A stretch of 38,186 nt of DNA. Source: a virus. Position numbers and translations under genes: made by a program. The stretch is taken from positions 1 through 38,186 of the IMG/VR virus record IMGVR_UViG_3300012351_000016. One strand, 5' to 3'. Below, one piece after another: positions 566-37,565 of this stretch. Each line of letters starts with the position of its first letter. Within the stretch, counting starts at the first letter, position 1. A model generated the notes under the pieces. The model made no database searches. It was given only the letters and a program-made list of their open reading frames with translations, and was not told the origin of the DNA.

Positions 566-591
566 CGATGACAGAAAGGCAATTCTATCAT

Positions 592-1206
592 ATGCATACT
601 ATACCTCATTTAGACCCACTCGAACGTTTCCTCGAAAAGCTTGTCCTCGCTGACCACATCGACGATAAAGGTCAGTACTGGCATTGTTGGGAATGGACTG
701 ACCCTAAGAACTCAGATGGATACGGAAGACTCTGGAATGGTGTCAGACGAATGTATTCACATCAGTGGATATACCGACACACTTACGGAATTTACTCTAC
801 TAAGAAATTACCTATTGACCATCTGTGCAGGAATCGTGCCTGTGTGAATCCAGAACATTTAGAGCGTGTGACAACTGGAGAGAACTTCCTGCGCGGCGTA
901 GGTCCATCTGCATTAAACTCACGTAAAACGTACTGTGTTCACGGACACGAGTTCACTTCTGATAATACCTACATCTGGGTAGACGGGAGTAGGCATTGCA
1001 GGGCGTGCGGTAGTACTACTGCTAACAAGAAACGTGGAGTTGTTGCCCCGTCTATCTCTAATAAACAAAAGACACATTGTCCTCACGGTCATGCATACAC
1101 ACTTGAGAACACGTATACCGACGCACGAGGTAGTAGGACTTGTAGAGAATGTCGCAGGGTGTGGAAAAAAGAAAGACGCAAGGATGAGTCTTTATCCACC
1201 ACGTAA
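592..1206 (+). CDS. HNH homing-type endonuclease 1
   Basis: The HNH core is at about residues 74-92, with the pattern PIDHLCRNRACVNPEHL (first H after D, then N and H of the beta-beta-alpha-metal fold). A W-rich substrate-recognition part precedes it (CWEWTDPKNSDGYGR). Two C-terminal zinc-ribbon-like repeats follow, of the form C.HGHxxTxxNTYxxxxGxRxCRxC. ATG 592 is chosen because it follows AAAGG and matches the start of the related minus-strand gene at 18836; ATG 568 would add eight residues directly after the leader hairpin. The gene is on the opposite strand to the structural operon and overlaps the gp10-like gene by 15 nt, as expected for a free-standing homing gene inserted between operon genes. 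Confidence 0.85.
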   Translation: MHTIPHLDPLERFLEKLVLADHIDDKGQYWHCWEWTDPKNSDGYGRLWNGVRRMYSHQWIYRHTYGIYSTKKLPIDHLCRNRACVNPEHLERVTTGENFLRGVGPSALNSRKTYCVHGHEFTSDNTYIWVDGSRHCRACGSTTANKKRGVVAPSISNKQKTHCPHGHAYTLENTYTDARGSRTCRECRRVWKKERRKDESLSTT

Positions 1207-2992: not shown

Positions 2993-3295
2993 TTACGCAG
3001 TCCTGGATGCTGGTGCTGGGGAAATGACGATGCCCTGCCCGCCGCCATTGGGTAGTGGAATGCCGCGTCCATTGGGCGCGGTAGAGATAGGCGCATCGGT
3101 ATTGGGATTGACGGGCGCACTCGTACTGTTGCTATTGGGAGGCGGTATGCCGTTCCCGTTGGGCGCAGTAGAGAGCGGTGCCTGCCCTGATGGAAGGATG
3201 CCTGCACCAGATGAGGGTGAAGGCAACGGGTTAATGGGATTTTGACTGTCAAAACTAGGGGAACTGGGTTCGGGTACTCCTGGAACTCCTGCCAT
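2993..3295 (-). CDS. Pro/Ser/Asn-rich low-complexity protein
   Basis: A 100-residue protein with AAGAAAGGAG before ATG 3295. It is almost entirely P, S, N, G and A. It contains an imperfect 16-residue repeat, seen as APLSTAPNGNGIPPPN and later APISTAPNGRGIPLPN. No catalytic motif is visible. In this operon position it could be a linker or a small virion decoration protein. It is the smallest gene of the head-tail segment. Confidence 0.55.
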   Translation of the reverse strand: MAGVPGVPEPSSPSFDSQNPINPLPSPSSGAGILPSGQAPLSTAPNGNGIPPPNSNSTSAPVNPNTDAPISTAPNGRGIPLPNGGGQGIVISPAPASRTA

Positions 3296-3310
3296 GAGCG
3301 TACTCCTTTC

Positions 3311-3856
3311 TTAGAGGATATTGTCGTCCGTAACCATAAAGGTAATAGAACCTGTACCTGTCTGTGTATAGAACACACCGCGATTACAGTAGCAGTTATA
3401 CAGGTACAACGTTGTTGCGGATGGGATGCCAATACTTGCTATCAACACCCCTGTCCCGGTACCTCCATTGTAGAGGAGAGGAGAGCCGTTATAGATGCTA
3501 ATGGCCGTTATCGAACCAACGGCGTTGATAACCAGTGATCCAAGGTATTGGGGACGAAACGAAATGATGTTGTAGGCACCACTATGTCCATTGACGAAGT
3601 CGGCGGTAAACGTCCCGCCTACAACATTGGTGGTTTTGACAATCACGTCTTCCGCTGCACCCGTACCAGCTGAGAAATTCAGGCGCATCCCCTGCACGAT
3701 GTTGGTCATAGAAGCGGGAGTGACAGTTTTGTCACTTCCTGCCGTAATGGTTGTAGCCGATGTTGTGGCGACATTATCGCCTAGTGGCTGTGCGGTAGCA
3801 GCAGCTGTCACATGAAAAGGGTAGTACGGGCTGAGGTTATCGGTACGTTCATGCAT
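3311..3856 (-). CDS. Beta-rich virion protein, paralogue of its upstream neighbour
   Basis: A 181-residue protein with AGGTGG before ATG 3856. A segment with IVQGMRLNFSAGTGAAEDVIV, followed by GGTFTADFVNGHSG, matches the repeat unit found in the 312-residue protein encoded just upstream (VVPGMSLNIAAGGGTAETVVV ... TFTATFGFSHS). The two genes therefore seem to share a domain. The C-terminal half is Gly/Tyr-rich with a Cys pair (NCYCN). It is probably a capsid decoration or fibre-like protein; the function is not recognisable from sequence. Confidence 0.55.
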   Translation of the reverse strand: MHERTDNLSPYYPFHVTAAATAQPLGDNVATTSATTITAGSDKTVTPASMTNIVQGMRLNFSAGTGAAEDVIVKTTNVVGGTFTADFVNGHSGAYNIISFRPQYLGSLVINAVGSITAISIYNGSPLLYNGGTGTGVLIASIGIPSATTLYLYNCYCNRGVFYTQTGTGSITFMVTDDNIL

Positions 3857-3866
3857 AGTACACCAC

Positions 3867-4805
3867 CTACCTGACTCTCGCAGGAATCAGTTCAAATTCC
3901 CAAGCGGTAAGTGGGGTAGCGATTCCCGTGCCGGTAGTGGTGCGTGCAACTGTCACCACATCACCTGGCAGCAGGATGTTGTTGATTTGTACAGGATTAA
4001 ACAAAACAGCGTTGTTGGCCTGTGAAATCACTGTTGCCGCGCTATAGGTAATTGATGCAAGCGGCGTAGAAGTGACTGCGGTACCCGTTGAGTGAGAAAA
4101 ACCAAAGGTGGCGGTGAAGGTAGTCGCTGTGACTGATTGGACAACGACGGTTTCTGCCGTACCGCCACCAGCAGCGATGTTGAGCGACATGCCTGGTACG
4201 ACATTCGACATGGATGTAAGTGGTACCGCCATGGTACTGGCAACAATCGCTGTTGTGACGGTCGTGGTATTGACAGGTAAGGCCATGAACGGCGTAGCCG
4301 CTGAGTTCACCAGTGTAATCGGTGTAGCAACAAAGGTATGCGTAGTCGCAAAGGTTGCTGTGAATGTCGTTGCTGTCACCGCCGTCACTGCGACGGTTTC
4401 AGGAGTACCTACAGCTCCTACATCTATACGTGTCCCAACCTGAATGTTGTTCATCAACGACCCTGTTGCGGGTGTTACGACAGATGAGCCAGAGGCGATG
4501 GTTGTAGAGGTAGAGGTATTCACGCCCAGGTTGCGCCGCACGTTGTTTGCGTACGACACGTAGTTTGTTGCCGCACCGGTAATAGTTGCCGCTGGCATCA
4601 GGTAGATCGCACGTACCGCGACGGCATTGGATGGCTGGTCGCCAAGTGACCCTGCCGAGGAAGGGGAGAGCGCAGCGAGATTGGGAACGGTGAAACAAGG
4701 TACTTCGTAGTCTTGTGCTGACCCTGCGGCTCCTAAAGGAAGGGCGACGGTAGCAGCAAAGGGCATGTCTCGGTTCTTACCGAGCATTTTCGCGATTTGA
4801 GCCAT
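3867..4805 (-). CDS. Ala/Thr-rich repeat virion protein
   Basis: A 312-residue protein with AGAAAGG before ATG 4805. After a globular N-terminus (MAQIAKMLGKNRDMPF...) come two copies of a unit ending TVxVxxVTATTFTATFxxxH, each preceded by a GTRIDVGAV or GMSLNIAAG turn. Such tandem beta modules occur in decoration and tail-tube-associated proteins. It lies two genes after the major capsid gene, so an outer capsid role is plausible but unproven. Confidence 0.55.
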   Translation of the reverse strand: MAQIAKMLGKNRDMPFAATVALPLGAAGSAQDYEVPCFTVPNLAALSPSSAGSLGDQPSNAVAVRAIYLMPAATITGAATNYVSYANNVRRNLGVNTSTSTTIASGSSVVTPATGSLMNNIQVGTRIDVGAVGTPETVAVTAVTATTFTATFATTHTFVATPITLVNSAATPFMALPVNTTTVTTAIVASTMAVPLTSMSNVVPGMSLNIAAGGGTAETVVVQSVTATTFTATFGFSHSTGTAVTSTPLASITYSAATVISQANNAVLFNPVQINNILLPGDVVTVARTTTGTGIATPLTAWEFELIPARVR

Positions 4806-4826
4806 GAGTGATGGCCTTTCTAGCGG

Positions 4827-5276
4827 TTATCGACCGCCAAAGTGCTGGTTGAGGGCGTCGCGCAGTACGCGAGCCTTGTCGGGGCCAAGTTCGGCCATAA
4901 TGCGTTGGATATCGGTCGGGCCAGTCATTGCGGCGAGTTTGCGCAGGTCTTCCGTCGAGACACCAGCCGCCTGCATAAAATCCTCTTCAGTGGCATCCTG
5001 CGGCAGGACATAGACATGCACGCGGCCCTGTGGCTTGCCACCGGAGGGACGAGTCCCACTGCGCCAGTGCTTGGCGATAGAGCCTGGGACGTTGGTGATG
5101 ACACCACCTTTTACCGTGTATTCGTCGAGGTAGGACACTGCTGTAGGGGCGACACGACCGTAGCCAAAGAGGACGTTATACAGTTCGTCGTCCTTGATCT
5201 CAGTGACGATAGGTGAAGGTTTCTCTTGTACCGCGACATAACTTGCCGTGGCAGTAAGGGTTTTTGCGGTGGGCAT
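4827..5276 (-). CDS. Small capsid-region protein of unknown function
   Basis: ATG 5276 is chosen because TTGGAG lies 7 nt upstream, giving 149 residues. The C-terminal third is helical (EEDFMQAAGVSTEDLRKLAAM ... DIQRIMAELGPDKARVLRDALNQHF). The middle is beta-rich. The ribosome binding site sits directly after an intrinsic terminator and a structured RNA, so expression may be attenuated. Position right after the major capsid gene suggests a head protein, but I do not recognise the family. Confidence 0.5.
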   Translation of the reverse strand: MPTAKTLTATASYVAVQEKPSPIVTEIKDDELYNVLFGYGRVAPTAVSYLDEYTVKGGVITNVPGSIAKHWRSGTRPSGGKPQGRVHVYVLPQDATEEDFMQAAGVSTEDLRKLAAMTGPTDIQRIMAELGPDKARVLRDALNQHFGGR

Positions 5277-5293
5277 AAAAAACTCCAAGAAAA

Positions 5294-5321
5294 AGAGACC
5301 TTCTCGTTTGAGAAGGTCTCT
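5294..5321 (-). terminator. Intrinsic terminator upstream of the 5276 gene
   Basis: The perfect 12-bp stem AGAGACCTTCTC/GAGAAGGTCTCT with a 4-nt loop runs into TTTTTC on the minus strand. It ends just before the GGAG of the gene starting at 5276, so read-through is needed to express the downstream structural genes from this side. Confidence 0.8.
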
Positions 5322-5336
5322 GTGTGATTTGTGGTG

Positions 5337-5404
5337 TCCCACTGTCCAGGCTGGTCGGCCTGATTCGCTTCTATGGGTTGCGCGGAGAGACTCCGACAGT
5401 GGGA
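5337..5404 (-). ncRNA. Structured multi-helix RNA before the terminator
   Basis: A 10-bp closing helix TCCCACTGTC/GACAGTGGGA encloses three short hairpins: CGGAG/CTCCG, CGC/GCG and CAGGC/GCCTG with loop CGACCA (minus-strand reading). An extended -10 element lies about 30 nt upstream and the terminator at 5294-5321 lies 15 nt downstream. The unit could be a separate small RNA or a leader that controls the terminator. I do not recognise a known family. Confidence 0.5.
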
Positions 5405-5431
5405 TTGTGTGTTGATGGACTCAACGCTCCC

Positions 5432-5442
5432 ACTATACCACA
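5432..5442 (-). promoter_or_regulatory. Extended -10 promoter for the structured RNA
   Basis: TGTGGTATAGT on the minus strand, the same element as at 510 and 25486. It overlaps the edge of the inverted repeat 5441-5479. Confidence 0.4.
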
Positions 5443-5479
5443 GAAGAACGGCCTGTGAGAGGAGGCCGTTCTTCTGTGT
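5441..5479. repeat. Long inverted repeat downstream of the major capsid gene
   Basis: Arms of about 15 bp (ACAGAAGAACGGCC and its complement) are separated by about 10 nt. There is no T-tract on the minus side, so it is not a classical terminator. It could be an RNA processing or stability hairpin at the 3' end of capsid mRNA. Confidence 0.5.
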
Positions 5480-5526
5480 GAGTTAAGCTAAGAGGTTCCT
5501 ATGGGGTATGGGTTCCCCACAAGCGT

Positions 5527-5537
5527 AGTATACCACA
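5527..5537 (-). promoter_or_regulatory. Extended -10 promoter after the major capsid gene
   Basis: TGTGGTATACT on the minus strand, directly preceded by a TTTTGGC-TTT-GCCAAAA hairpin (5539-5555). A transcript from here would run through the inverted repeat and the structured RNA. Confidence 0.35.
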
Positions 5538-5584
5538 TTTTTGGCAAAGCCAAAAGACGTAGTATTTATAGTGAATTACACTAT

Positions 5585-6275
5585 TTAACTCGCGAGCCTC
5601 CGAACCTTGCCATTAAACAAGGGGGCTGCCTGTTCCAGCCCAAACATTATGAATGGGATGAAACGATTTGAGAGAGAACCATCTACACCAGATGGAATTT
5701 GTAAAACTGTAAAAGTTTCACTATACAACCAACGCACGGTTACGGTGCGCTCGTCAAGGACGTACATATCCTCAACTAACTGACCGTCACTGGTACGGAT
5801 ATAGGTGCCGATCGTGTTACCTGGCACGGGGATGATGGCGAGGGAGCCATTGGCCCAGTTTATCTGGTTCACGCGCACACCTGGGATGATTTCCGTGAAA
5901 TCGTTGTTGTACCTTTGGTTGGACTGTTGTTCGGTGTCGAGCGCCTGTTTGGCGTTCATGCTCATGAGGACGCACGAGGGCATGCCGCCGTTGTTGGCGG
6001 CTTTGGCCGAGACCAATTGCAGGGACTCTAAGATGTTCAGGCTCTGGATGTCGGCCTGAATGGCATTGTTGGTAGTAAACCCTGCGACTGAGCCGAGGAC
6101 GGAACGGAACCCATCAAACGCACTGGCGTTGTAGAGTCCCTGTTCGGTTGTGGCGACGCCTCCACTATTTGTTGCATTTCCTTGAAACAGAAAGTATTGG
6201 GCGTCAGTCGCTAATTTTATCATACCATTAGCGAGTTCTGTCTTCTGCGAGTCGTATGGAGCACCACCCTGGCTT
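5585..6275 (-). CDS. Major capsid protein, exon 4 (C-terminal 229 residues)
   Basis: The frame is open upstream of the first ATG and reads SQGGAPYDSQKTELANG into IKLATDAQYFLFQGN. The stretch from the YFLFQGN segment to the beta-rich C-terminus (RTVTVRWLYSETFTVLQIP) is like SU10/DUF5309-type major capsid proteins with the HK97 fold. The exon begins after intron base G6276 and completes a Val codon (GT|A). Joined to exons of 337, 203 and 20 nt it gives 1251 nt, a 416-residue protein. On its own it has no ribosome binding site at its first ATG, so it is not a separate gene. Confidence 0.8.
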
Positions 6276-6520
6276 CACTTTGTTACTCGATTATTATATC
6301 ACAAACAATCGGATAGGTCAATTTCTTCCCTATTCTTCTCATTCCTGAGAAGGTCGGAGCACCGCTTCACCCACTTACTTTAGGTAAGTGGGGCATCTCG
6401 CTTGCTCTCTACGGGCGACTTGCGTCTTCCCACGGGATTGTCCACTTCTTTCAGTTGGGAGTTTCCCCGTTTTCAGAGATGTTTAATCGAGCCGCTTACG
6501 CGGCAAGGCGGCAAGCATTT
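6276..6520 (-). ncRNA. Group I intron 3 of the major capsid gene (245 nt, no ORF)
   Basis: Read on the minus strand, helices appear in group I order. P1 pairs exon GCGGU with GCCGC, with U.G at the splice site. P3 is CATCTC/GAGATG, P4 ACGGG/CCCGT, and P6 ends in a GAC-GCAA-GTC GNRA hairpin. P7 is GAGCA/TGCTC. P8 is a 9-bp hairpin. The 3' end has the same GAGTAACAA block before the terminal G as the other three introns. P7 differs from the GACTA/TAGTC of introns 1 and 2 on both strands, a compensatory change that supports the fold. Confidence 0.85.
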
Positions 6521-6540
6521 ACCGCTGCAAGTTCTTTGAA
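6521..6540 (-). CDS. Major capsid protein, exon 3 (20-nt microexon)
   Basis: Twenty bases lie between the 3' end of intron 2 (G at 6541) and the 5' splice U (6521) of intron 3. They encode FKELAA plus two bases of Val. The exon is inferred from three things: the shared GAGTAACAA intron 3' block, the P1 pairing GCGGU/GCCGC, and frame, which is kept only if the 20 nt are included. No direct evidence for splicing is available. Confidence 0.6.
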
Positions 6541-6673
6541 CTATATTGTTACTCACCCATATGGGCGGGGACGATCATTTCTGTCGCCCTCTATATGTTT
6601 CCATATAGAGCGGACTATCGCATCATCTCGCATACGCGAGAGCATCACGCTTAGTCTCTACGGCTGCACAAGC

Positions 6674-6702
6674 TTGATATTCGCTGTCAACTATGCTATC
6701 AT
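6674..6702 (+). promoter_or_regulatory. Promoter of the LAGLIDADG gene
   Basis: TTGATA and TATCAT are separated by exactly 17 bp. The element lies inside the group I intron but points opposite to capsid transcription, letting the homing gene be expressed independently. Confidence 0.6.
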
Positions 6703-6754
6703 GTGGAGTGAGTCAAGCAGTATATGCGTGATATTAAACCCCACAGGAGAAGTC

Positions 6755-7801
6755 ATGGTTAACGAACTGTTTACTGCGTATCTTGCAGGATTTTTTGATG
6801 GAGAAGGGTCAGCCTATGTTCGGAAGAACACCTACTACGTCCATTCTCAGTCAGGCAATGACAGAGTTCAGAGGCATCGCTACACAATTATGGCGATTAT
6901 GGAGAACCTTGTGCCTGACCCTATCATTGCGACTTATCTCAACTATGGCGGGACGTTGTGTGACGTACAGCCCGTTAATCTGAATGCAAACAGAAGCTAT
7001 CGTCTTTCGTTCCATACGAAGGGAGCTTACAACTTCTTGCAAGGTATCCATCCATACCTCATCCGAAAACATCAGAATGTGACTGACATTCTCAAGGTTA
7101 AGGATCATCAGGAATATATGGACGCCATATACCCCGATATCATTGGGAAAAACGGATCGCAGCGATATCCTAGCAATGAGATACAAGAACTCGATCGCCT
7201 TGTTGTTCAAGCACGAGCGCACACTGATCGAAGTGGTAATTTTTCTCCACTGATCCCAGTGTATGAACTTGACAATAACCTATCCCATTTTGTCCCACCA
7301 GTGTACTTTGATGAGTACGGGAACGTTATCCAGGACATCGCGTTTGCTTATACTGCTGGGTATTTTGATGGTGAAGGATATGTTTTTCTGGAAAAGAGAC
7401 GCGAGAGAAAATCGACGTATCGCGCAACATTTGTCGTGTCTGATACAGTTCCAGCCTCTCTTCTATTCGTATCCAACCTCGTACCATCAAAAAAACCACT
7501 ATATGCTACAAAAAGACAGTCTTCTCGGCAGAAGGGACTGTACAGATTGTGTGCATCGAGTCGAACTGACTCACAGTACATGTTTCAGAATATCCTCCCC
7601 TACGCAATGGTGAAGCGTGGGAGGATTGAGATAGCCTTAAAATTCCTTCAAGAGTATCATTCTGGAGAAACCACTCATCTTGACGAATACATTCAGGAAG
7701 TAAAAGACTTGAATTTTCATAACAGGATGAGAGATCACCAGGATATCAAGACTTTGCTTGCCTCGCGGTTGGCTTTTCCTTCTGTATTTACAGAAAGATG
7801 A
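6755..7801 (+). CDS. Double-motif LAGLIDADG homing endonuclease
   Basis: ATG 6755 has CAGGAG 5 nt upstream, giving 348 residues. Two LAGLIDADG-type motifs, YLAGFFDGEGS near residue 8 and YTAGYFDGEGY near residue 195, each end in the acidic pair region that coordinates the catalytic metal. A protein with two motifs acts as a monomer with pseudo-symmetry. The open frame extends upstream to 6455, but that part lies in the ribozyme core and lacks a ribosome binding site. The enzyme would be expected to cut intronless capsid genes and so spread the intron; a maturase role is possible but unsupported. Confidence 0.9.
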   Translation: MVNELFTAYLAGFFDGEGSAYVRKNTYYVHSQSGNDRVQRHRYTIMAIMENLVPDPIIATYLNYGGTLCDVQPVNLNANRSYRLSFHTKGAYNFLQGIHPYLIRKHQNVTDILKVKDHQEYMDAIYPDIIGKNGSQRYPSNEIQELDRLVVQARAHTDRSGNFSPLIPVYELDNNLSHFVPPVYFDEYGNVIQDIAFAYTAGYFDGEGYVFLEKRRERKSTYRATFVVSDTVPASLLFVSNLVPSKKPLYATKRQSSRQKGLYRLCASSRTDSQYMFQNILPYAMVKRGRIEIALKFLQEYHSGETTHLDEYIQEVKDLNFHNRMRDHQDIKTLLASRLAFPSVFTER

Positions 7802-7868
7802 AGCTATTCCCCGATATCAGTGATGTTTTTCATAACAGATCACTCTGTTAAGCAGCCTCTATTCTTTG

Positions 7869-8071
7869 ACTGACGCCGCGCCCTGTTGCGAGTACGGCGA
7901 TAGGATACGTTGCCCTGACATACGTCGAGGCGGCGTAGTTGACTACGCCAAGTTCTGTGATGGCGGTTGAGCCAAGCGCAGCGGGGTCAGGAGTCGTAAT
8001 TTGGTTTGCAGCGTGTACGAGTCCATTTGCTGGTCCCTTGGCAAGCCGCTCCCATGCTGGAAACACCTTCA
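7869..8071 (-). CDS. Major capsid protein, exon 2
   Basis: The exon is 203 nt: two bases completing a Leu codon (T|TG) and 67 codons, starting KVFPAWERLAKGPANGLVH and ending GRGVS. The continuing frame runs into a stop inside intron 2. The sequence is like the region before the central domain of HK97-fold capsid proteins. It is flanked on both sides by group I intron ends. Confidence 0.75.
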
Positions 8072-8299
8072 CGAATCAAGTTGTTACTCACCCACAACAC
8101 TCTACTGTGAGCGGGGCACGCGATTTCTCCGTGCCTCTGCACCTTCTCGTATACGTGCAGATCAGACTATATCATGCCTTTCGGCCCTCGCGTTTAGTCG
8201 TTACGGTCTCTCTGCTTGCGCAGGTTGCCTCGGTGTCGCCCATGGAATGTGGGTATTCACCGATACAGCGAGGTTCTCAGACAGCGCAGCCTATACACT
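8072..8299 (-). ncRNA. Group I intron 1 of the major capsid gene (228 nt, no ORF)
   Basis: P1 pairs exon CAGCGU with GCGCUG (five Watson-Crick pairs plus U.G at the splice). P3 is CCTCGC/GCGAGG, P4 CGGTG/CACCG, P5 CCCA/TGGG, P6 ends in a TGC-GCAA-GCA GNRA hairpin, and P7 is GACTA/TAGTC. The 3' end carries GAGTAACAA then a terminal G. Removal joins GCG T|TG AAG and keeps frame. Compact size and the lack of an ORF suggest it depends on another factor for mobility or is fixed. Confidence 0.88.
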
Positions 8300-8636
8300 A
8301 CGCTGCTGGGCCAATTGTTGAGCTTAGCGCGTAAAGGGTCGGTTCCAGGTCCTGACGGATCAACGGAGACCCGTCTGTCAGGCCAGATGCTGTCCCTGAC
8401 CCCAAAATGTTCTTGGTGACAGTTGGGATAAAGGGCGCGTTGTACATTTCGCCAACCACTTTTTTACTGATTTCTCCGCTCTCGTCGCGGGGGGCAGGCT
8501 GGCTCATCATGTAGCGTAACTGGCGGTCAAGTTGCGTGGTGTTCATGGTCAGGAGGCGATCAATCTGCTCCTGCCTGCGAATCATATATACCTGGTCGCT
8601 GGGATGCATGACCTCGGTAAAGGAATTGTCGGCCAT
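8300..8636 (-). CDS. Major capsid protein, exon 1 (N-terminus)
   Basis: ATG 8636 follows GAAAGGA. The exon encodes 112 residues plus one base (MADNSFTEVMHPSDQVYMIRR ... ALSSTIGPAA) and then meets a TAG inside intron 1. Without splicing, translation would stop at residue 112. With all three introns removed the gene encodes 416 residues, a normal size for an HK97-fold capsid protein. The gene follows the protease and head-associated genes, as in most siphoviruses. Confidence 0.85.
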
Positions 8637-8725: not shown

Positions 8726-9956
8726 CTAGTCGCCCTCGTGGATAATCGGAACGAGTACTTCTCGTCCCTGGTAGTAGTTGTCCATGTCCTGAATGCTCAT
8801 GATGGACATCTGGTCGTTACTCAGTTGTGGGCGCTGGTGGATGCCGTGCCCATAAGGCCACAGGCGGCATTTCACGCCGTCGCCGCGCTTCTGAATAGCG
8901 GTATTGGTTCTCAATTGTTCTGGCGTCTGCGCCTCTATGTGCACAGGTTTATCGCCATTGAACCCGCTGAGGGGGCTGCGTCCGGCGAAGGTCGTAGGTC
9001 GCCCTAAACCATTTCCCTTGAGTGCGCCAATTTGCTGATTTAAGGTTAGTAGCTCATTATTCGCATTGGTAAGTTGCCGCTGGATGTCGGCGACATCAGG
9101 CGGTGTATTCGGCATCGTGATGACCTGGATAGGAGCAGGAGGGGGCGTCTCTACCACGGGCGTGACAGGGGCGGGTGAACCAGCAGGCAGAGCAGGCACC
9201 TCAACGCCTAAGCGCAGCGCGATGTAGTCAGCGCTGTGGACAAGGTGTGTCCCTGCCTCTCTGAGGGCCACAAGGTAATCGCGAAAGGCGATGCTGTTGT
9301 CACCCTCAAGGGTCACGCCATCGGCGCGGTTGCCTTGTGGGTCTACCGCAGCGAAGCCAAGGGTCTTGCCCAGGCCGTTATAGGCAAGCAGGAGCGATGG
9401 GTCGAAGGACTTATTGGCGCGTCCTGTACTGTCGTTATTGTCGGCGTTGTTGGCCCGTCCTGGGTTGCTCTGTGCATCGTTTGGCGTGGGTATGCTACTA
9501 TTGACTCCGCTGCCGCTTGCTGTAGCAGCACGTGGCTCGTTCCAGTCGTCCTGGTCGCCATCCCCATCGGGTTGCCCGCCATCCCCGTCCAGGTTGCCCG
9601 TGTGGTCGTGGAGATGCGAGTTGGAGTTGTTGTGGTTATGCGCGTGGCTGTGGGATGCATCGCCTGGGCCGTGGCTGTGGTCGTGGCTATGCGACCCCAA
9701 GAGTGGCGCGTGATAGTTGGCTGCGTCGAGGGTCGTAAGTTCTTCGTCCTCAACGTCCTGGGTTTCGATGCTTTCAGACGGCATCTCTTTCTCCTTTGTG
9801 TCGGTTCCTGAACCGAAATGAGCTTGACGCCGCTTGATACGGCCTCCGATAATCCCTTGTTCTGCACTGTTGTATTGGCTACGGTTTGATGCGTCGCCCC
9901 AGCGAGAGGCGGCATTGTCGGCGTGAGCCTTGTCATGACAGGGGTAGCGATAGTTG
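8726..9956 (-). CDS. Head-associated (scaffold-like) protein, exon 2
   Basis: The frame is open upstream of its first ATG and continues NYRYPCHDKAHADNAASRWG directly onto exon 1 once intron 4 is removed. Exons of 203 and 1231 nt give 1434 nt, 477 residues. The order is: an N-terminal KWSSVPDGQWGDP...NYRYPC module ending about residue 110 (resembling the DUF6582-type module near prohead proteases); a His-rich stretch near residues 156-186 (SHSHDHSHGPGDASHSHAHN); an Asp/Gly-rich linker; a Pro-rich linker; and a coiled coil (VADIQRQLTNANNELLTLNQ). Lying between protease and capsid genes, it may scaffold the prohead. Confidence 0.75.
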
Positions 9957-10185
9957 CGTTTTGTTACTCATACAGTAGTACGGGCATGGACATTTCTGCC
10001 ATGCTCTCACCATTCCTGGTGAGTTCGGCCTGTAACATCATCCTGTAAAACAGGAGCCTCTCGTTCAGTCTCTACGGGTGAAATTGCTTCTTCCCTCGGT
10101 ATTTTCCACTTGTTGCAGTTGGGAGGTTCACCGATATAAGAGAGGTTTTCGTGAGCAGTTACCCACTCACGCCGCCATTTTGTTA
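9957..10185 (-). ncRNA. Group I intron 4 in the head-associated gene (229 nt, no ORF)
   Basis: P1 is CCGU/GCGG with U.G at the splice. P2 is GTGAG/CTCAC, P3 CCTCTC/GAGAGG, P4 CGGT/ACCG, P6 GGG/CCC, and P8 is a CCTG/CAGG hairpin. P7 is GACTG with CAGGC, which has one A/G mismatch. The 3' end is GAGTAACAAAACG. Splicing GT|C restores Val-Asn-Tyr in a GDPVNYRYP motif that is continuous in related proteins, which fixes both splice sites. P3-P6 sequence is close to intron 3, so these two share recent ancestry. Confidence 0.9.
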
Positions 10186-10388
10186 ACGGGGTCTCCCCAT
10201 TGCCCATCCGGTACACTCGACCACTTGCTAGGCTTTGTGACGTTACCGCCATCCTTCACACCAATACCATAGCGTGCAGATCGAGCCTTTTGCGCGGCTT
10301 TGCCACCGTCGCCGCCATCAGCCGCCAGCGTGCGTATCCTGGCGAGTAAATCCTGCTCATCGGTGGCCGAGAGCACCGTTAATTGCAT
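10186..10388 (-). CDS. Head-associated (scaffold-like) protein, exon 1
   Basis: ATG 10388 has AAGGAG 7 nt upstream. The exon encodes 67 residues plus two bases of a Val codon, MQLTVLSATDEQDLLARIRT through KWSSVPDGQWGDP. The unspliced frame adds only a few intron-coded residues before a stop. The open frame upstream of ATG 10388 overlaps the divergent homing gene's leader and is not used. Confidence 0.8.
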
Positions 10389-10434: not shown

Positions 10435-11283
10435 ATGGAAGAACCAGTTCGGCAATGTGAGCATTGCCAAAAGATACTTGTGCGTCGAGAGAAAGAAAAA
10501 CCAGTACGGTTTCGTACACGTCGTTTCTGTTGTACACGTTGTTTCTACCATCACAGGAGTGGGCTTACCTATGGCCTACTTCGCAATTGCCAGTATTGTG
10601 GACAATTGCTAGTACAGCATCAAAAAGAAAGCCCTTCTGCTTTTGAACGAAGATTATCTTGTGATAAGGCGTGCGCTAATCGTTTCAAAAATGATTTGGT
10701 GCGCGGTAAACCCAACCCAAAGCTACAGGGGAGCAACAATGGTATGTGGGGTAAAACCCACACGGCAGAAGCACGTGAAATTCAGAGGCAGTCAGCACTG
10801 GCGCATCCGCTGTCGAAAGAAAAGCGTCAGGAGATGGCACTCAACCAGATAGGAAGAAAGCACCGTCAGAAGACGAAGGACAAAATGTCTGACTCCCGTA
10901 TCCTCTGGTGGAGTAAGCAACCGGAAGAAACAAAAGATCAACTCCGACAGAGTTTTATAGAAAATCTCCCTGCACGCCCACGTTTCAGAAAGACAGGCAT
11001 CGAGAGACGCATCGCAAAAGAACTAGACACTCTTGGTATTCAGTACCTTTGGAACACGCCTCTTCTTGGGAAATTCAATGTAGACTTCCTGCTTGAAGAG
11101 TACCGTGTCGTTATCGAATGCGACGGTGAGTACTGGCACGGCCTTCCTGAGATGATGGCTCGTGATGTCATAAAAGACAAAGAGATACCGGAGGCAGGTT
11201 ACACGCTCATTCGCCTTGAGGAAAGAGACATCAACCATAACCTAGACGATTGCGCGCAGCGAATTGTAGATGCGCTGTGCTAA
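10435..11283 (+). CDS. Vsr-like (EDxHD-type) homing endonuclease with NUMOD3-like motifs
   Basis: ATG 10435 follows GGGAGG; 282 residues. The N-terminus has paired Cys motifs (CEHCQK, CCTRCF, CQYCGQ, then CDKAC) that look like zinc knuckles. The middle has NNGMWGKTHTAEAREIQRQS and similar repeats of the NUMOD3 DNA-binding type. The C-terminus has a Vsr/DUF559-type nuclease core (ERRIAKELDTLGIQY ... FNVDFLLEEYRVVIECDGEYWH) with the D, E and D/H residues expected. The gene is antisense to the head operon and its 3' end overlaps the protease gene by 42 nt. It sits about 250 bp from intron 4, which has no ORF of its own. Confidence 0.85.
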   Translation: MEEPVRQCEHCQKILVRREKEKPVRFRTRRFCCTRCFYHHRSGLTYGLLRNCQYCGQLLVQHQKESPSAFERRLSCDKACANRFKNDLVRGKPNPKLQGSNNGMWGKTHTAEAREIQRQSALAHPLSKEKRQEMALNQIGRKHRQKTKDKMSDSRILWWSKQPEETKDQLRQSFIENLPARPRFRKTGIERRIAKELDTLGIQYLWNTPLLGKFNVDFLLEEYRVVIECDGEYWHGLPEMMARDVIKDKEIPEAGYTLIRLEERDINHNLDDCAQRIVDALC

Positions 11284-12174: not shown

Positions 12175-12596
12175 GCCTTTGTTCCCCTACTGCCACGTAC
12201 GCGCACAGCGGTGTGCGTACCTACTGCTGTAGCTTGCGGCTCTTTCTCAGCGCTTTCCTCAGCCTCTTCCCGCTCTGCTTCAGCGTCTGGTTGAGGTCTA
12301 TCTCCTGCTTCCACCGATTGTCCAGACTCCGCTGTCTCCGCGCTTGTTTCTGGTGTTCGTGTTTCTTCTTGCGTCGCGTCAATGATTTTCTCCTCTGGCT
12401 CGACCATGAGGTAGCGATGTGAGACGCCGTTGGTCAGGTGCAGTTTCAGGTTATCGGTGGTGTACGGTTTTCCCTGACGCAGATCAAGTTGCAAAATTGC
12501 CTCCATCGTGCCATCGTCGCGTTCAAGCAGCACCACGCCACGCAAGCAGGTGATGTCGTCGGTGGTAATGATGTTGGCATCATCGGGGTGATACAT
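12171..12596 (-). CDS. Acidic protein between portal and protease genes
   Basis: ATG 12596 follows AAGGAGAGG and lies inside the last 17 nt of the portal gene, so translation is probably coupled; 141 residues. The N-terminal half is globular (DDITCLRGVVLLERDDGTME). The C-terminal half is Glu/Ala-rich and disordered (EAEREEAEESAEKEPQ), ending in a basic tail (RVRGSRG). I do not recognise a family. Position and charge fit a head-assembly accessory. Confidence 0.6.
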   Translation of the reverse strand: MYHPDDANIITTDDITCLRGVVLLERDDGTMEAILQLDLRQGKPYTTDNLKLHLTNGVSHRYLMVEPEEKIIDATQEETRTPETSAETAESGQSVEAGDRPQPDAEAEREEAEESAEKEPQATAVGTHTAVRVRGSRGTKA

Positions 12597-14967
12597 ATGC
12601 CTCTCCTTGTTGGTAGTAGCGCGGTGCCCAACGCTTGCCTGGCTCACGTCCATCAAATTTATGCAGCGACAGCGATGGTTGTGTCTGCGACTCTCCCTGC
12701 TCTGGATACTGCTCGTCACCTAACGGAAAGCCCTTGCGGTCGTCACAGATCACCAGCGTCACCGTGTCAAAGGAGAGTGGGAGCGCTGGGACACTCTCGA
12801 TTGGCATGGGCGCGTCCGCCGCGATGTACGCGAGGGTGATATGCGGGGTGAAGCCGTGATTTTTTGCCACGAAGTAGTGCTCGCGCTCTATTTCCGCGAC
12901 CAGTTTGGTACGAAACTCGGCAAGTCCTGGGATATCAACGCTGGCGTAGACGGGCGTGAGTCCTCCGTCTTCATCCTCTGCATTGAAGCGTCCAATGCCT
13001 GCGACAGAGCCACTCAGTGGGATGCTTTCTGAGGCAACAGCGGCAATCGCCTGTTTGAGGCGGTTAGGTTTGCTAAAGGGCGTCAGGAAGTCCTGCGGCT
13101 CGTCGTTCTTGTCTCCCAGGTAAGCGAGGGTAATGTGCAGGTCTTGCACAGGCTCACCGCCAGGAATAGCTAACTGCGCCGCGATGTCTGGCGGGATGAT
13201 GAGCGCCACCATCGCGCCAGTATGGTTGGCACCTGTCGCCTGATAGTCTGGTATCAGTGCTTTGGTAGGTGTAGGAGTGGTCGCGGCGTTCTGTCCTGCC
13301 CCTCCTGTAGGGGTAGAGCGTTGGCTCGCTAGTGGGACATTACTTTTGCCACTCACGGTGTCGGGGTCTGGCTCATCGGTTGGCCCACTTGATGGGTCTT
13401 GCGCTCCCATTTCCCCTGCCAGTGGCGGCGGGCTGTAGTCGCCGGTGTTGCCACCATCGTAGGATAGCCAGGGAACAGGGCCAAAGCGCGTTGGGACGTA
13501 GAAGGTGTTGCCGCCAGGCACCGGCTGGTCGCCACGCAGTTCAAGTACCTGATTAAGCGTCATCGAGGGTAGTCCGATGAGGCTGTCTTTGGCAATCGTC
13601 GCGGCGCGTTCGGCATGCATCTGTCGCGCCGTCTCACTGACCTCTGGATAGACAATACGCAAGTTCAACTCGTCCATATTCACACGGTCGTCTGCTAGGC
13701 GAGGCGCATAATCAAACAACAACTCGCGATTCAGTTGCTCTTCCAGCAGCAAAAGGAGCGGAATAAGGCCGGTGTCTTCAAAGATTTGCTGCTGGGAGTC
13801 GCCGGTGGCTTTGTTGATGTCAAAGGTGACGCCCAGTTGTTGCGGCGATATCTGAAAAATGGCGGCGATCTTGCGTAGCAGATATATCTGCCACTCCATC
13901 CATTGATTGTCCTTAGCTGATTGTGTCAGCGGGAAGACTTTGGCTTCGGCGCTGCCGCCAAGCAGGAACAGTTCCTTACGCCCCATGAGTTCTTGTTCGT
14001 ACATCGTGCGCAGGTTCAGGATTTGTCCAGGGGTGGCATTGAGCAACTGGATGAGGTGCGGCGGCGGTTTGTGGTCAACCATGCCGCGTGCACTTTTAGA
14101 AGCAGCCTGGTCGGCCTGAATGGTATCGTACAACACTTGCACCGGCGAGAGGCCGTAGCGATGCGTCGCGGAGTTGGCGATAAACACAATGCACTCATCG
14201 TTGAAGAGTGGTACGTCAGGTCCGGTCTGGGCGGCAGGAGTAAACAGGTAGCGATAATCTCTTGGGTCGCCCTGCCAGTTAGGCAAAATCGCAATGGTCG
14301 CGCCGTCTTCGTAGTACAGGTTTTGTGGGATGCGCTGCGCATTCATGTCTTTTGAGATGACGCCACGGTCAAGCACCAGGATGTCCTCAATCACCGGCTC
14401 AATGAGCGAGCGGTAGGAGTCGCGCATTTCGTTGGGCTGGTTGAGCAGAAACTCGACCTTGCGCATGATGCTCCGATTGTACGGCTTGAGTGGGTTCTTG
14501 GGCATCACGGCAATGTCGGCACGCCCGATTTGCTGGCGACGCACATTGATGGCAGCGCGTGCCCATGGATTGGTATCCGCCAGTTGCCTGAGCATACGCG
14601 AGTTGTTGACATAATTCGGCATGTCTCGCGTGCCAGACCAACCACTAGCAATCGGGCTGGCCTGCGGGGTGCTGCCTGTAGGGGAGTGAGACAGCGTGAT
14701 ATCAGGGCGGGTGAGCGCGTCTTGCCTTGCGTCCTCACGCCGTTTGATGCCTTCCAGGTAGGACGCCAGTTTCGGGTAGCGGTTGAGCACGTTTGCGGCG
14801 TCGCGCAGGTCAAGCACCTGATCGTACTGGTTGCCTGTCCTGCCTGCTGTTGCGACAGCCTGCGTATCCGCCACAGCAAGCGCTCGCATGAGTTCCTGGT
14901 ACGCCTGCTGCACGTCAGGTGGCGTGCGCGGTGCAGCAGTGGTTTGCTTGCGGCGTCGGCGTGTCAT
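12580..14967 (-). CDS. Portal protein fused to a 2H phosphoesterase (LigT-like) domain
   Basis: A 795-residue protein; AAAAGGA precedes ATG 14967. Residues about 120-530 are a phage portal (TNPWARAAINVRRQQIGRAD ... IAAIFQISPQQLGVTFDINKATG), which forms the dodecameric DNA gate at one capsid vertex. A Pro/Gly/Ser-rich linker follows (about 535-595). The C-terminal 190 residues carry two HxT motifs, LHITLAYLG and FTPHITLAYI, about 95 residues apart, the signature of 2'-5' RNA ligase/cyclic phosphodiesterase folds. No stop or frameshift separates the parts. A typical portal is 400-550 residues, so the extra domain is a true addition. It may process RNA ends or cyclic nucleotides; this is inference. 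Confidence 0.85.
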   Translation of the reverse strand: MTRRRRKQTTAAPRTPPDVQQAYQELMRALAVADTQAVATAGRTGNQYDQVLDLRDAANVLNRYPKLASYLEGIKRREDARQDALTRPDITLSHSPTGSTPQASPIASGWSGTRDMPNYVNNSRMLRQLADTNPWARAAINVRRQQIGRADIAVMPKNPLKPYNRSIMRKVEFLLNQPNEMRDSYRSLIEPVIEDILVLDRGVISKDMNAQRIPQNLYYEDGATIAILPNWQGDPRDYRYLFTPAAQTGPDVPLFNDECIVFIANSATHRYGLSPVQVLYDTIQADQAASKSARGMVDHKPPPHLIQLLNATPGQILNLRTMYEQELMGRKELFLLGGSAEAKVFPLTQSAKDNQWMEWQIYLLRKIAAIFQISPQQLGVTFDINKATGDSQQQIFEDTGLIPLLLLLEEQLNRELLFDYAPRLADDRVNMDELNLRIVYPEVSETARQMHAERAATIAKDSLIGLPSMTLNQVLELRGDQPVPGGNTFYVPTRFGPVPWLSYDGGNTGDYSPPPLAGEMGAQDPSSGPTDEPDPDTVSGKSNVPLASQRSTPTGGAGQNAATTPTPTKALIPDYQATGANHTGAMVALIIPPDIAAQLAIPGGEPVQDLHITLAYLGDKNDEPQDFLTPFSKPNRLKQAIAAVASESIPLSGSVAGIGRFNAEDEDGGLTPVYASVDIPGLAEFRTKLVAEIEREHYFVAKNHGFTPHITLAYIAADAPMPIESVPALPLSFDTVTLVICDDRKGFPLGDEQYPEQGESQTQPSLSLHKFDGREPGKRWAPRYYQQGEAYVSPR

Positions 14968-18013: not shown

Positions 18014-18042
18014 TAATATACTATATTGTATATCTCTGTCAA
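18014..18042 (-). promoter_or_regulatory. Sigma70-type promoter for the small membrane gene and tRNA block
   Basis: TTGACA at 18037-18042, with TATATT 16 bp (or TATTAT 18 bp) downstream on the minus strand, in a very A+T-rich stretch. The -35 overlaps the HNH gene's stop codon. Confidence 0.7.
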
Positions 18043-18836
18043 GTTTTTTCTGAACCAATTTCTGGGACGGACGTACCAAAACTGTCAATTGTCTGCTGCT
18101 CGGCTTGTTGCGTCGAGAGTTTCCACTCGCGCCCTCTTCGCTTATTTTCTGCACTTGTTACTGGCTCCAGATGCTCAGGGTTAACACACCATGGGTTGTG
18201 ACATCGATGATCGAGTTCTAAGCCTTCAGGGACAGGCCCACGTATCTGCGTGTATAGCCAGAGATGAGCGACCATACATTTTCCATGCTTTGGGTAAAAG
18301 ACACCGTACCCTTTAGCACCTTTTCCGGCAGTCCACTCCCAACACCCATCACCTCGTCGGGAAACATTTTTGTGGAAGCGGTCTGACACCTGCTTACGAT
18401 GTTTTTCACTTAGGACTGCTTCACACAGAAGGCATCTTCTAGCACCGTCAGGGCGATATGCAGTGGTTTCCGAGGTATATTCATGTCCACGGACACAGTG
18501 AGTACGCCCAGACGCCTTTGCTCTTTCTCCGTTTACATGATGTCTTTCAGCATCATACTTCTGGTTGTAGGCATTTCTACAGGTGCGGCAACTTCTTCTC
18601 CCATCGGTTCTATCATAGGTATTTTCTGGAGTGTATTCGTGTCCGTAGATACAGTGGGTGGGTTTAGCACTTACTCCTCCACGCCAAGGACTTTGTGCAC
18701 GTTGTTTCCTAGCTGCTGCTCTTCGACATATCTTACACTCTTTTTTCCCTGAAGGGTCTATGTAGGTATTCTCTGAGGTGCGTTCGTGCCCATTGCGACA
18801 TCGATAAAGGGGCCATGATTGAGGTATACTGTCCAT
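18039..18836 (-). CDS. HNH homing-type endonuclease 2 with Cys/His repeats
   Basis: ATG 18836 has TTGGAG at 8 nt; 265 residues. Three tandem zinc-finger-like repeats, C..GHExTxENTYxxxDGxRxCRxC, fill residues 10-135. A W-rich module follows (GCWEWTAGKGAKGYGVFYP), then the HNH core GLELDHRCHNPWCVNPEHLE near residue 210. The domain order is the reverse of HNH 1, where the repeats follow the core. The last 29 residues start EWKLSTQ, the same seven residues found near the C-terminus of the small terminase just upstream, so the gene seems to have captured or carried a terminase C-terminus. Confidence 0.87.
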   Translation of the reverse strand: MDSIPQSWPLYRCRNGHERTSENTYIDPSGKKECKICRRAAARKQRAQSPWRGGVSAKPTHCIYGHEYTPENTYDRTDGRRSCRTCRNAYNQKYDAERHHVNGERAKASGRTHCVRGHEYTSETTAYRPDGARRCLLCEAVLSEKHRKQVSDRFHKNVSRRGDGCWEWTAGKGAKGYGVFYPKHGKCMVAHLWLYTQIRGPVPEGLELDHRCHNPWCVNPEHLEPVTSAENKRRGREWKLSTQQAEQQTIDSFGTSVPEIGSEKT

Positions 18837-31227: not shown

Positions 31228-31260
31228 AAAGCGGTGCGGCTTTTCACGTGCCGCTTTTTT
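31228..31260 (+). terminator. Leader terminator at the glycosyltransferase start
   Basis: AAAGCGG/CCGCTTT stem followed by TTTTTT, ending 9 nt before ATG 31269. It may attenuate the downstream operon. Confidence 0.6.
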
Positions 31261-31268
31261 ACGTAGAT

Positions 31269-32960
31269 ATGGGGCTACAAAACAAGATGTATAAAACAAG
31301 CCTGACAAAAAGTATTCTCTTTCTTCTTGCTATTCTCGCCAATCTGAACTATTTGCTCTTCATTGACAATCCCCTGCACGCAGGCAATCCAGGGTTTTAT
31401 ATACTTACGGCTGTTGCCGATACTATTGCTGCCTGTATCTGTCTCTCGACGTGGGTGCTGGCATTGTATTTTGAACTGAGCAAGTCGCGCTACTACCGTG
31501 ACCTTGCTGACCTGCGCAGGCATGGGGCGCATCTCCTCCAACAGCGCGTGGCCGTCCTCGTCACGGCGGTGAACGAGGACGTGTCTATCGTACGCAATAC
31601 ATTGGAATGTGCGCAGGCACTTGTGGGTGAAAAGACGGTGTATCTCCTTGACGATGGCAAGAAGGACGCCTACCGCGACCTTGCGGATGCCCTGGGGATA
31701 CGCTACATCACCCGACCCGATAACCGCTTTTACAAGGCAGGCAACCTCAACCATGCGCTACGTCACTATGTGCATGAGCCATTCTTCTTGGTCATGGATG
31801 CTGACTTTGCCGTGCATCCAACATTCTTGCAGCGCACGATGCCCTGCTTCGCTGACCCACGTATCGCAGCGATACAGACGCCGCAGGTCTACAGCAGCGA
31901 CGAGACGCTGTTCGCCCGTGGCAGCAAGCATCTGCAAGACATCTTCTACCAGTACATCCAGCCTGGTAAGCACCTCATCAACAGCGCCTTCTGCGTCGGC
32001 ACCAATGTCATCTTTCGCACAGCAGCCATCCACGAAGTCGGCGGCATTGTGGCGTCCCACTCGGAGGATATCTTTACTACCCTGCGCCTGCAAGAGCATG
32101 GCTACCGCATCCTGTTTCTCAATGAGCAACTTGCCGTCGGGCTTGGCCCGACGACGCTTATCTCCTTCTACCGCCAGCAGTACCGTTGGGCGCGTGGTGG
32201 ATTTTTCATGCTCTTCAAACACAACACCCTCTTCAACCGCAAACTGCATGTTGAACAGCGCATCCAGTTCTTCCTCACCAACTGCTTCTACTTCATTGGC
32301 ATCTCCGTCCTGATCTATCTGCTGAGTCCCCTGATCGCTATCCTGCTCAACATCACCCCTTTGAGTGATGCCTACACAGGTGCGTGGCTCAACGCCTATG
32401 TTCCGTTCTTTTGTGCCAATGTCCTCTTTGGCCTAGCGCTGCTGAAACGCTACCGTATGCAAAGTCTGCTCATTGGTATCTTCAGCCACATCCCCTACCT
32501 CAATGCGCTGCGGGCGGAGGTCTTTGGCTGGCGCATCTACAAATGGAAAGTGACGAACCAGGCGTCGAAGGGACTCATCACCACCCTGCTTGTCCCCTAC
32601 ATCCTGTACCTGGCAATTGGAGGAACCATCGTCACATTTTTGGTCATGGGCATCATCATCTACAACCCTGCACTACTCTTCTACTACGTGTGGCTGGCGC
32701 TAGACATGCTCATGATGTTCGTCTTTACTGTGGCAGGGTATGCATCTACTGCGCAGGCACATGTCCCTGCCATCGGGCAGGTGACGAGCGTACGGGAGAT
32801 GAGTACGGCAGAAGTGCTGGCAATCAGCGCACCGCGTCCGCGATCACTCGTTATAGATGATAGGCAAACCGCGAAGATAGCTATTGAAGACGAACCAACC
32901 GATAGGCTCATCGCGGTGAATGGGCATCGCCTGTGGAAAGGAAGAAGATACCACCAATGA
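31269..32960 (+). CDS. Family 2 processive glycosyltransferase (cellulose/curdlan synthase-like)
   Basis: ATG 31269 or 31287 is likely; neither has a clear ribosome binding site, and GTG 31248 lies in the terminator. About 563 residues. Two N-terminal membrane helices are followed by a GT-A domain with VLVTAVNED, LLDDGKKD, the DxD motif VMDADFAVH, the catalytic HSEDIFTT and the QQYRWARGG motif that binds the growing chain. Several C-terminal membrane helices follow (ISVLIYLLSPLIAILLNI and later). This is the BcsA/CrdS/hyaluronan synthase type, polymerising UDP-sugars and extruding the chain. No PilZ domain is seen. The linkage cannot be told from sequence; the nearby GH81 hints at beta-1,3-glucan. 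Confidence 0.88.
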   Translation: MGLQNKMYKTSLTKSILFLLAILANLNYLLFIDNPLHAGNPGFYILTAVADTIAACICLSTWVLALYFELSKSRYYRDLADLRRHGAHLLQQRVAVLVTAVNEDVSIVRNTLECAQALVGEKTVYLLDDGKKDAYRDLADALGIRYITRPDNRFYKAGNLNHALRHYVHEPFFLVMDADFAVHPTFLQRTMPCFADPRIAAIQTPQVYSSDETLFARGSKHLQDIFYQYIQPGKHLINSAFCVGTNVIFRTAAIHEVGGIVASHSEDIFTTLRLQEHGYRILFLNEQLAVGLGPTTLISFYRQQYRWARGGFFMLFKHNTLFNRKLHVEQRIQFFLTNCFYFIGISVLIYLLSPLIAILLNITPLSDAYTGAWLNAYVPFFCANVLFGLALLKRYRMQSLLIGIFSHIPYLNALRAEVFGWRIYKWKVTNQASKGLITTLLVPYILYLAIGGTIVTFLVMGIIIYNPALLFYYVWLALDMLMMFVFTVAGYASTAQAHVPAIGQVTSVREMSTAEVLAISAPRPRSLVIDDRQTAKIAIEDEPTDRLIAVNGHRLWKGRRYHQ

Positions 32961-34108: not shown

Positions 34109-34122
34109 GAAAGAGTTTTTTG

Positions 34123-36279
<2,157 letters not shown>

Positions 36280-36305: not shown

Positions 36306-36324
36306 AACCCCATGAAATATTGTT

Positions 36325-36355
36325 CCCACGGCGTTGGTATTAACAGCGCCGTGGG
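36325..36355 (+). promoter_or_regulatory. 5' leader hairpin of HNH gene 3
   Basis: CCCACGGCG/CGCCGTGGG stem continued by TTG/CAG, closing a 7-nt loop GTATTAA. Position and loop (ending AA, 7 nt) match the hairpins of HNH genes 1 and 2, although the stem sequence differs. Confidence 0.5.
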
Positions 36356-36383
36356 TGAGTGCAACCTTGTTGGAGGCTACACT

Positions 36384-37565
36384 ATGGACACTATATACTC
36401 AGGTTTATCCGATAGCAACCCATCACAAAAATACCTCACAAAGTGGCTTCCCTTTGAAGAAGCGCGTACGTTTGTTCACTCATTAGAGTTAAAGAATGCC
36501 GATGAATGGCGAGACTATTGTAAATCCAAACAGAAGCCAACAGGTATTCCCACGAACCTATACACTACATATAAAGATCAGTTTCAAGGAATGGGGGACT
36601 GGCTAGGAACCTATGCTATCGCCACCTACAATAGAGAGTATCTCCCCTTCGAGGAAGCGCGAGAGTACACTCGATCTTTGGGATTCAAGAATGGGCAGGA
36701 ATGGAAAAATTACTCGCAGTCTGGACAGAAGCCTGTTAATATTCCATCTCTCCCTTGGAAAGTTTACAAACAGAGTTGGCAGAACTGGGGAGACTGGTTA
36801 GGAACCAGTATAATTGCTGCGCGACTACGTGAATATCTTCCCTTTGGTCAAGCACGAAGTTATGTACAAACGCTAAGACTCAAGAGCAATCACGAATGGA
36901 GAGAGTACTCTAAATCAGATATGAAACCAGCTAACATACCCTCAGACCCTCATCACGTTTATAAGTCTGAGTTTCATGGTTATGGAGATTGGCTTGGGAC
37001 AGGAACAATTGCACCACAAAACTATGAATACATCCCCTTTGAAGAAGCCCAAGTATATGTTAGGACATTAGGACTCAAGAATACCGGCGAGTGGCGTGAC
37101 TTTTGCAAGTCAGGAGGGAAACCGACAAATATCCCTGTTTCCCCACACCTCATCTACCGCAATGACTGGCAGAGTTGGGGAACATGGTTAGGTACAGGAA
37201 CACTGAGTCCCCAGGCAATGAATCTATCTTCTGAACAGAGACTTGCACATAGACGGGTCAGTTCACATAAGATGCGTGCGCATAGAAAAACCGTCCTAGG
37301 AACCCATACTGCTGCACAAATACAAGAGCAATTAAGACGCCAGAAGTATCGTTGCTATTATGCTGCCTGTGGGTTTTCTACGTTCAAGAAACGCGATGGG
37401 GGATACGTCTATCACGTTGACCACACCTTCCCTCTCTCGCGTGTTGCTGGTACTAATATTCCTGCTAATACTATTGACTATCTTGTGTTAGCCTGTCCTA
37501 CCTGTAATCTGAGTAAGCATGACAAGTTTCCTTGGGAATGGCCTGAGGGGGGAAGATTACTATGA
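36384..37565 (+). CDS. HNH endonuclease 3 with four phage-integrase-type repeats
   Basis: ATG 36384 has TTGGAGG at 8 nt; 393 residues. The open frame upstream is the hairpin leader. Four repeats of about 57 residues begin LPFEEARxYVRSLGLKN, contain EWRxYCKSGxKPxNIP and end GDWLGTG; they resemble the repeat called PHINT in algal and giant-virus proteins. A basic linker leads to the HNH core: CYYAACGF, YVYHVDHTFPLSR, and CPTCNLSK. The C...C/CPTC pattern is a zinc-binding HNH variant. The repeats probably read DNA. Confidence 0.82.
   Translation: MDTIYSGLSDSNPSQKYLTKWLPFEEARTFVHSLELKNADEWRDYCKSKQKPTGIPTNLYTTYKDQFQGMGDWLGTYAIATYNREYLPFEEAREYTRSLGFKNGQEWKNYSQSGQKPVNIPSLPWKVYKQSWQNWGDWLGTSIIAARLREYLPFGQARSYVQTLRLKSNHEWREYSKSDMKPANIPSDPHHVYKSEFHGYGDWLGTGTIAPQNYEYIPFEEAQVYVRTLGLKNTGEWRDFCKSGGKPTNIPVSPHLIYRNDWQSWGTWLGTGTLSPQAMNLSSEQRLAHRRVSSHKMRAHRKTVLGTHTAAQIQEQLRRQKYRCYYAACGFSTFKKRDGGYVYHVDHTFPLSRVAGTNIPANTIDYLVLACPTCNLSKHDKFPWEWPEGGRLL

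Follow-up and report, generated by a model that had tools for sequence, protein, structure and literature searches.

The window analyzed here is a whole IMG/VR virus record of 38,186 bases, whose minus strand carries, by profile matches, terminase, portal, protease-like, scaffold-like, and capsid genes. The capsid gene lies on this strand in four pieces, parted by introns of 249, 1328, and 245 nt. The features of the region are listed below, with the evidence for each in parentheses.

5585–6275, minus strand: capsid exon 4, 691 nt (translation and alignment; SU10_MCP PF17236)
6276–6520, minus strand: predicted group I intron 3, 245 nt, no ORF (Rfam, covariance model R1)
6521–6540, minus strand: capsid exon 3, only 20 nt, FKELAAV (6 of 7 residues conserved in relatives)
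6541–7868, minus strand: predicted group I intron 2, 1328 nt, its ribozyme split near P6 by an antisense ORF (Rfam, covariance model R1)
6755–7801, plus strand: LAGLIDADG homing endonuclease gene, 348 aa, AGGAG ribosome-binding site before the ATG (Pfam, PHROG, weak PDB matches)
7869–8076, minus strand: capsid exon 2, 208 nt (translation and alignment with intronless relatives)
8077–8325, minus strand: predicted group I intron 1, 249 nt, no ORF (Rfam, covariance model R1, protein homology, P1 with U.G)
8326–8636, minus strand: capsid exon 1, 311 nt, ending ...GCGCT, phase 2 (translation and alignment with intronless L003 and L005)
8726–9956, minus strand: exon 2 of a DUF6582/scaffold-like gene (DUF6582 match in the spliced frame)
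9957–10185, minus strand: predicted fourth group I intron of the same family, 229 nt, no ORF (covariance model R1, core at 9961–10147, in the training set)
10186–10388, minus strand: exon 1 of the DUF6582/scaffold-like gene (DUF6582 match in the spliced frame)
10435–11283, plus strand: free-standing VSR-like (MTES_1575/DUF559, NUMOD3) endonuclease gene, antisense to the head genes

Exons and joins of the capsid gene

Joined, the four capsid exons form a frame of 1230 nt and 409 residues. The joins read CGCT/ATTC at intron 1, CAGT/TTCA at intron 2, and CGGT/AAGC at intron 3; with longer flanks, the predicted joins are CTTTACGCGCT/ATTCGTGAAGG, GGCGTCAGT/TTCAAAGAAC, and TTGCAGCGGT/AAGCCAGGGT, respectively. 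The product matches the SU10-like capsid profile (PF17236, E 1e-5, over the cut-off; phrog_264, E 0.003), and protein searches of IMG/VR recover intronless relatives at 62–65% identity (L003, L004, and L005) and 69% identity (L006), along with L007 and L008. Alignment with L003 and L005 is gap-free across all three joins, micro-exon included (64% identity). Differences from the relatives in exons 1, 2, and 4 are concentrated at third codon positions; the micro-exon, at seven codons, is too short to weigh in this respect.

An initial annotation of this DNA had already proposed three minus-strand introns in one capsid gene, a claim that the joins, Rfam, and the covariance model bear out. Its lengths for introns 2 and 3 (1328 and 245 nt) are exact to the base, but intron 1, given as 228 nt, is in fact 249 nt. 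The joins proposed for that intron, 8300/8071, are misplaced at both ends; T8326 joined to A8076 matches the intronless relatives, which give 1230 nt and 409 residues in place of the proposed 1251 nt and 416 residues. It is conceivable that splicing at 8300/8071 does occur and yields the 416-residue protein, perhaps as an alternative product with a join reading ACGCGCTATTCGTGAAG; this version stays in frame, and its 5′ site falls within a hairpin with a U.G pair. Such a product is nonetheless scarcely credible, as it would keep residues found in no relative (LYAL-SSTIGPAAL-KVFPA) and drop the invariant F-V that the corrected sequence restores (LYALFVKVFPA). At join 1, the initially annotated protein reads LYALSSTIGPAALKVFPAW, the relatives LYALFVKVFPAF, and the corrected window protein LYALFVKVFPAW. 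The rejected version would also leave 9 nt after the GAGTAACAA motif, whereas the corrected intron 1 keeps the family spacing of 4–5 nt. The P1 helices with U.G at the splice that the initial annotation described are sound for introns 2 and 3, but the hairpin it assigned to intron 1 is the family's P2; the corrected site has a P1 of its own (GCU/AA with UUGGC, U.G at the splice). That annotation does not mention that exon 3 has just 20 nt, nor the LAGLIDADG gene running antisense within intron 2, nor the fourth intron (10185–9957).

Identity of the introns as group I

At the curated Rfam gathering threshold (50 bits), no intron is found in the window, because this intron family scores only 22–30 bits. 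With an E-value threshold, RF00028 matches all three capsid introns: intron 1 at 30.2 bits (E 4.5e-5), intron 2 at 22.2 bits (E 0.012), and intron 3 at 30.3 bits (E 4.4e-5). In each of these, as in the fourth intron, the 5′ exon ends in U and the intron in G. The capsid introns share the 3′ block claimed for them initially, all ending in GAGTAACAA followed by 4–5 nt of which the last is G, and the window holds four copies of this motif in all, every one at the 3′ end of a minus-strand intron. Minimum-energy folding places a P1 with U.G at the 5′ splice site of introns 1, 3, and 4; for intron 2 the equivalent helix was found by hand (CAGU with GCUG, 4 bp).

The core alignment comprises 11 introns: introns 1, 3, and 4 of the window, three from a second capsid gene (L009, described below), one from the phage Baka, and four from other viral contigs. 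RNAalifold on these cores yields 38 pairs, 27 of them with compensatory changes; with P7 added, 97% of pair cells are formed and double changes appear in 30 of 43 pairs. None of 500 shuffled controls matches any of these measures, and sliding the pairing partner by one base reduces pairing to a third. A pseudoknotted P3–P7 core is found together with P4–P6, P3 and P7 being 98% paired with compensatory changes; the P3, P4, and P7 initially assigned to all three capsid introns are present. Applied to the window, covariance model R1, built from the 11 cores, finds exactly four introns, all on the minus strand. The cores of intron 1 (8081–8275) and intron 3 (6280–6483) belong to the training set of the model; intron 2, from outside it, scores 86 bits (E 1e-20).

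Further marks of the family are a P9.1 with AGAAAU, a P9.2, and a 3′ GAGUAACAA block, and a pattern built for its 3′ part matches at least 120 stretches of viral contigs. Group I introns of subgroup IA, the usual phage subgroup, are marked by P7.1/P7.2 between P7 and P3. In our alignment only 3 nt separate P7 from P3 and P7.1/P7.2 are absent; the introns are therefore not filed under subgroup IA.

The fourth intron and the scaffold-like gene

The fourth intron carries its GAGTAACAA at 9961–9969. Its removal joins DPV to NYRYP within a DUF6582 match that spans the join, and opens a frame of 477 residues into the scaffold-like gene. Protease and scaffold form one long frame in relatives; in the window, the VSR-like gene at 10435–11283 sits between them, and the covariance model finds no fifth intron around it.

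There is one A.G mismatch in P7 of the fourth intron, which might be taken as a sign of decay in a neighboring gene: the introns could have lost splicing, leaving the contig as a capsid pseudogene or a defective phage. We consider this very unlikely, as P3, P7, and P1 are preserved in all three capsid introns, and the exons, including the micro-exon, retain both frame and residues. Because the contig is metagenomic and repeats one intron family, it could also be argued that its pieces were misassembled or stem from different viruses joined into a chimera. That explanation appears extremely improbable given that four in-frame joins restore proteins of expected length and that every insert is a complete intron.

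The antisense endonuclease in intron 2

The endonuclease gene within intron 2 is intact and runs antisense to both the intron and the capsid gene, its 3′ end overlapping, as read from the sequence, the P5–P6 side of the ribozyme on the opposite strand. The predicted protein has two LAGLIDADG motifs, each with an acidic residue (AYLAGFFDGEG and AYTAGYFDGEG), and matches Pfam LAGLIDADG_3 (E 4e-6) and phrog_5046 (E 4e-24); in the PDB, I-CvuI, I-CreI, and I-MsoI are weak matches. No close relative of the gene was found in IMG/VR or the phage collection. Judged by distance among the loci at hand, an antisense LAGLIDADG frame lies within 1.6 kb upstream at 7 of 127 distinct 3′ ends besides that of the window. 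Antisense homing endonuclease genes are also known from nuclear rDNA introns (PMC9548176).

Comparison with known systems

The closest parallels come from mycobacteriophages, where splicing of the LittleE capsid intron and of the Baka intron was shown by RT-PCR in infected cells and, for LittleE, also by protein sequencing (PMC3706429). The LittleE intron (JF937101) has a LAGLIDADG gene on the opposite strand (PMC3706429), and it resembles the window in its host, a major capsid gene, in its GAGTAACAA end, and in its antisense LAGLIDADG gene; although outside the training set, it scores 140 bits with model R1 (E 4e-34). It differs in being a single intron rather than one of three, and in its endonuclease, a 177-aa, one-motif protein similar only in the motif region. 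Its splicing is proven, whereas that of the window introns is predicted. The tail-gene intron of Baka and Optimus (PMC3706429) resembles window introns 1, 3, and 4 in family, GAGTAACAA end, and lack of an ORF, but it is a single intron in a tail gene, again with proven splicing. A U-A pair at the splice in P1 of Baka and LittleE was considered and dropped; the published exon ends, paired by hand, give U.G in both.

Multiple introns in one gene are likewise on record. In Staphylococcus phage Twort, orf142 holds three group I introns, an exon of just 23 nt separates introns 2 and 3, and exon skipping occurs (PNAS 1999;96:7005, as described in PMC10136302). It shares with the window both the number of introns and a tiny exon (23 and 20 nt), but it is a different gene with introns of subgroup IA2, and the skipping shown there would, in the window, shift the frame. 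Jug phages and Bastillevirinae have two or three group I introns in single essential genes, terL and DNA polymerase among them, and some of the Jug phage introns have metatranscriptome support (PMC12363816, PMC11878797). The Bastillevirinae introns are mostly IA-like, however, and the host genes in both groups are genes other than capsid. Each of these traits of the capsid gene has a laboratory-proven precedent in other phages, which makes the gene of this uncultured phage a new, if striking, case of a kind already known.

Probable mechanism and origin

The Rfam matches, the covariation, the uninterrupted relatives, and a family membership shared with mycobacteriophage introns proven by RT-PCR together support the reading of the capsid gene as split by three group I introns that would have to be removed from its mRNA. 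The anatomy of the gene, the covariation, the restored frame, the conservation over the joins, and the homology to introns with proven splicing are direct results; we infer splicing in this phage, the activity of the endonuclease, and the order of splicing. Very probably, three introns of one family invaded the capsid gene separately and self-splice to leave an mRNA for a 409-residue protein, with the endonuclease most likely serving to spread intron 2. Each intron would fold into a ribozyme in which the terminal U of the exon is held in P1 as U.G; guanosine would attack after this U, and the freed exon would then attack after the terminal G. Three such excisions would restore a 1230-nt mRNA for the SU10-like capsid protein. 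Introns 1 and 3 would be bare ribozymes, while the predicted endonuclease of intron 2 most likely cuts intronless capsid alleles, so that the intron spreads by homing.

The capsid introns are mutually only 51–57% identical, and intron 1 resembles introns from other phages more closely than it does the other two, which makes separate arrivals probable. Intragenic duplication, considered as a source of the three introns, is unsupported at this level of identity.

Three observations count against this account: the 20-nt exon invites skipping, the Rfam scores of 22–30 bits fall below the gathering threshold of 50, and searches of IMG/VR and the phage collection gave no close relative of the endonuclease. 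The small exon would have to act as the 3′ exon of intron 2 while also supplying the P1 strand of intron 3. A transcript that skipped it would carry the join GGCGTCAGT/AAGCCAGGGT; since skipping would shift the frame, a viable phage would need to include exon 3 efficiently.

Intron load in other capsid genes

Three introns in a capsid gene were initially described as a heavy load. The three introns are real, but the term is relative, as other phage capsid genes carry four to eight and Twort orf142 carries three; three introns per capsid gene is not extreme. The homologous capsid gene of the uncultured relative L009 (IMGVR_UViG_3300025928_000123) is interrupted by four or more introns of this family, inserted at codons 101, 127, 183, and after about 194, as against 104, 174, and 180 in the window; no insertion site shared between these two genes was found. 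Two of the L009 introns carry HNH endonucleases in sense orientation, in contrast to the antisense LAGLIDADG gene of the window. A 62-residue hydrophobic ORF at L009 6634–6819, inside a capsid intron, is not an endonuclease and has no Pfam match.

An unrelated capsid lineage (phrog_1357 type) was gathered by protein similarity, starting from an intron-bearing contig. At least three model matches, and at most eight, occur at 27 of its 63 loci, a proportion that is not an unbiased estimate because the lineage was entered through that contig. In L133, a single capsid protein of 329 residues is encoded in pieces across about 3.9 kb (about 3150–7000). L133, L094, L115, L156, and L185 have capsid genes dispersed by up to eight introns, with exons down to about 30–50 nt. 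Of 120 contigs chosen solely for the intron pattern, at least 35 encode a capsid homolog on the intron's strand no more than 1.5 kb away from it, with only five query proteins used to seek such homologs. In the mostly open-access literature searched, no report was found of a capsid gene with more than one group I intron. A bolder and rather doubtful proposal would be that one family of group I introns has a recurrent hot spot in the major capsid genes of uncultured phages, where a gene of ~1 kb can hold as many as eight of them and have exons no longer than a few dozen bases, and that the introns, beyond being carried along, time or throttle capsid synthesis through splicing.

Significance and other genes in the record

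Both the listing of ORFs and the curated Rfam threshold overlook these introns, and in many uncultured phages the capsid gene is therefore likely to be recorded as broken or missing. How many ribozymes a normally very highly expressed structural gene can carry is illustrated by the window, L009, and the lineage of L133, which also provide natural material for studying exon skipping at an exon size of about 20 nt, as well as antisense homing endonucleases.

Further HNH-type endonuclease genes lie at 568–1206 (plus strand), 18039–18836 (minus), and 36312–37565 (plus), and homing-type nucleases are thus abundant in the record. The portal protein (12580–14967, minus strand) has a C-terminal 2′-5′ RNA ligase/LigT phosphoesterase domain. 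Also on the plus strand, the gene at 34120–36279 encodes a glycosyl hydrolase family 81 protein (E 5e-79), and that at 31248–32960 a family 2 glycosyltransferase.
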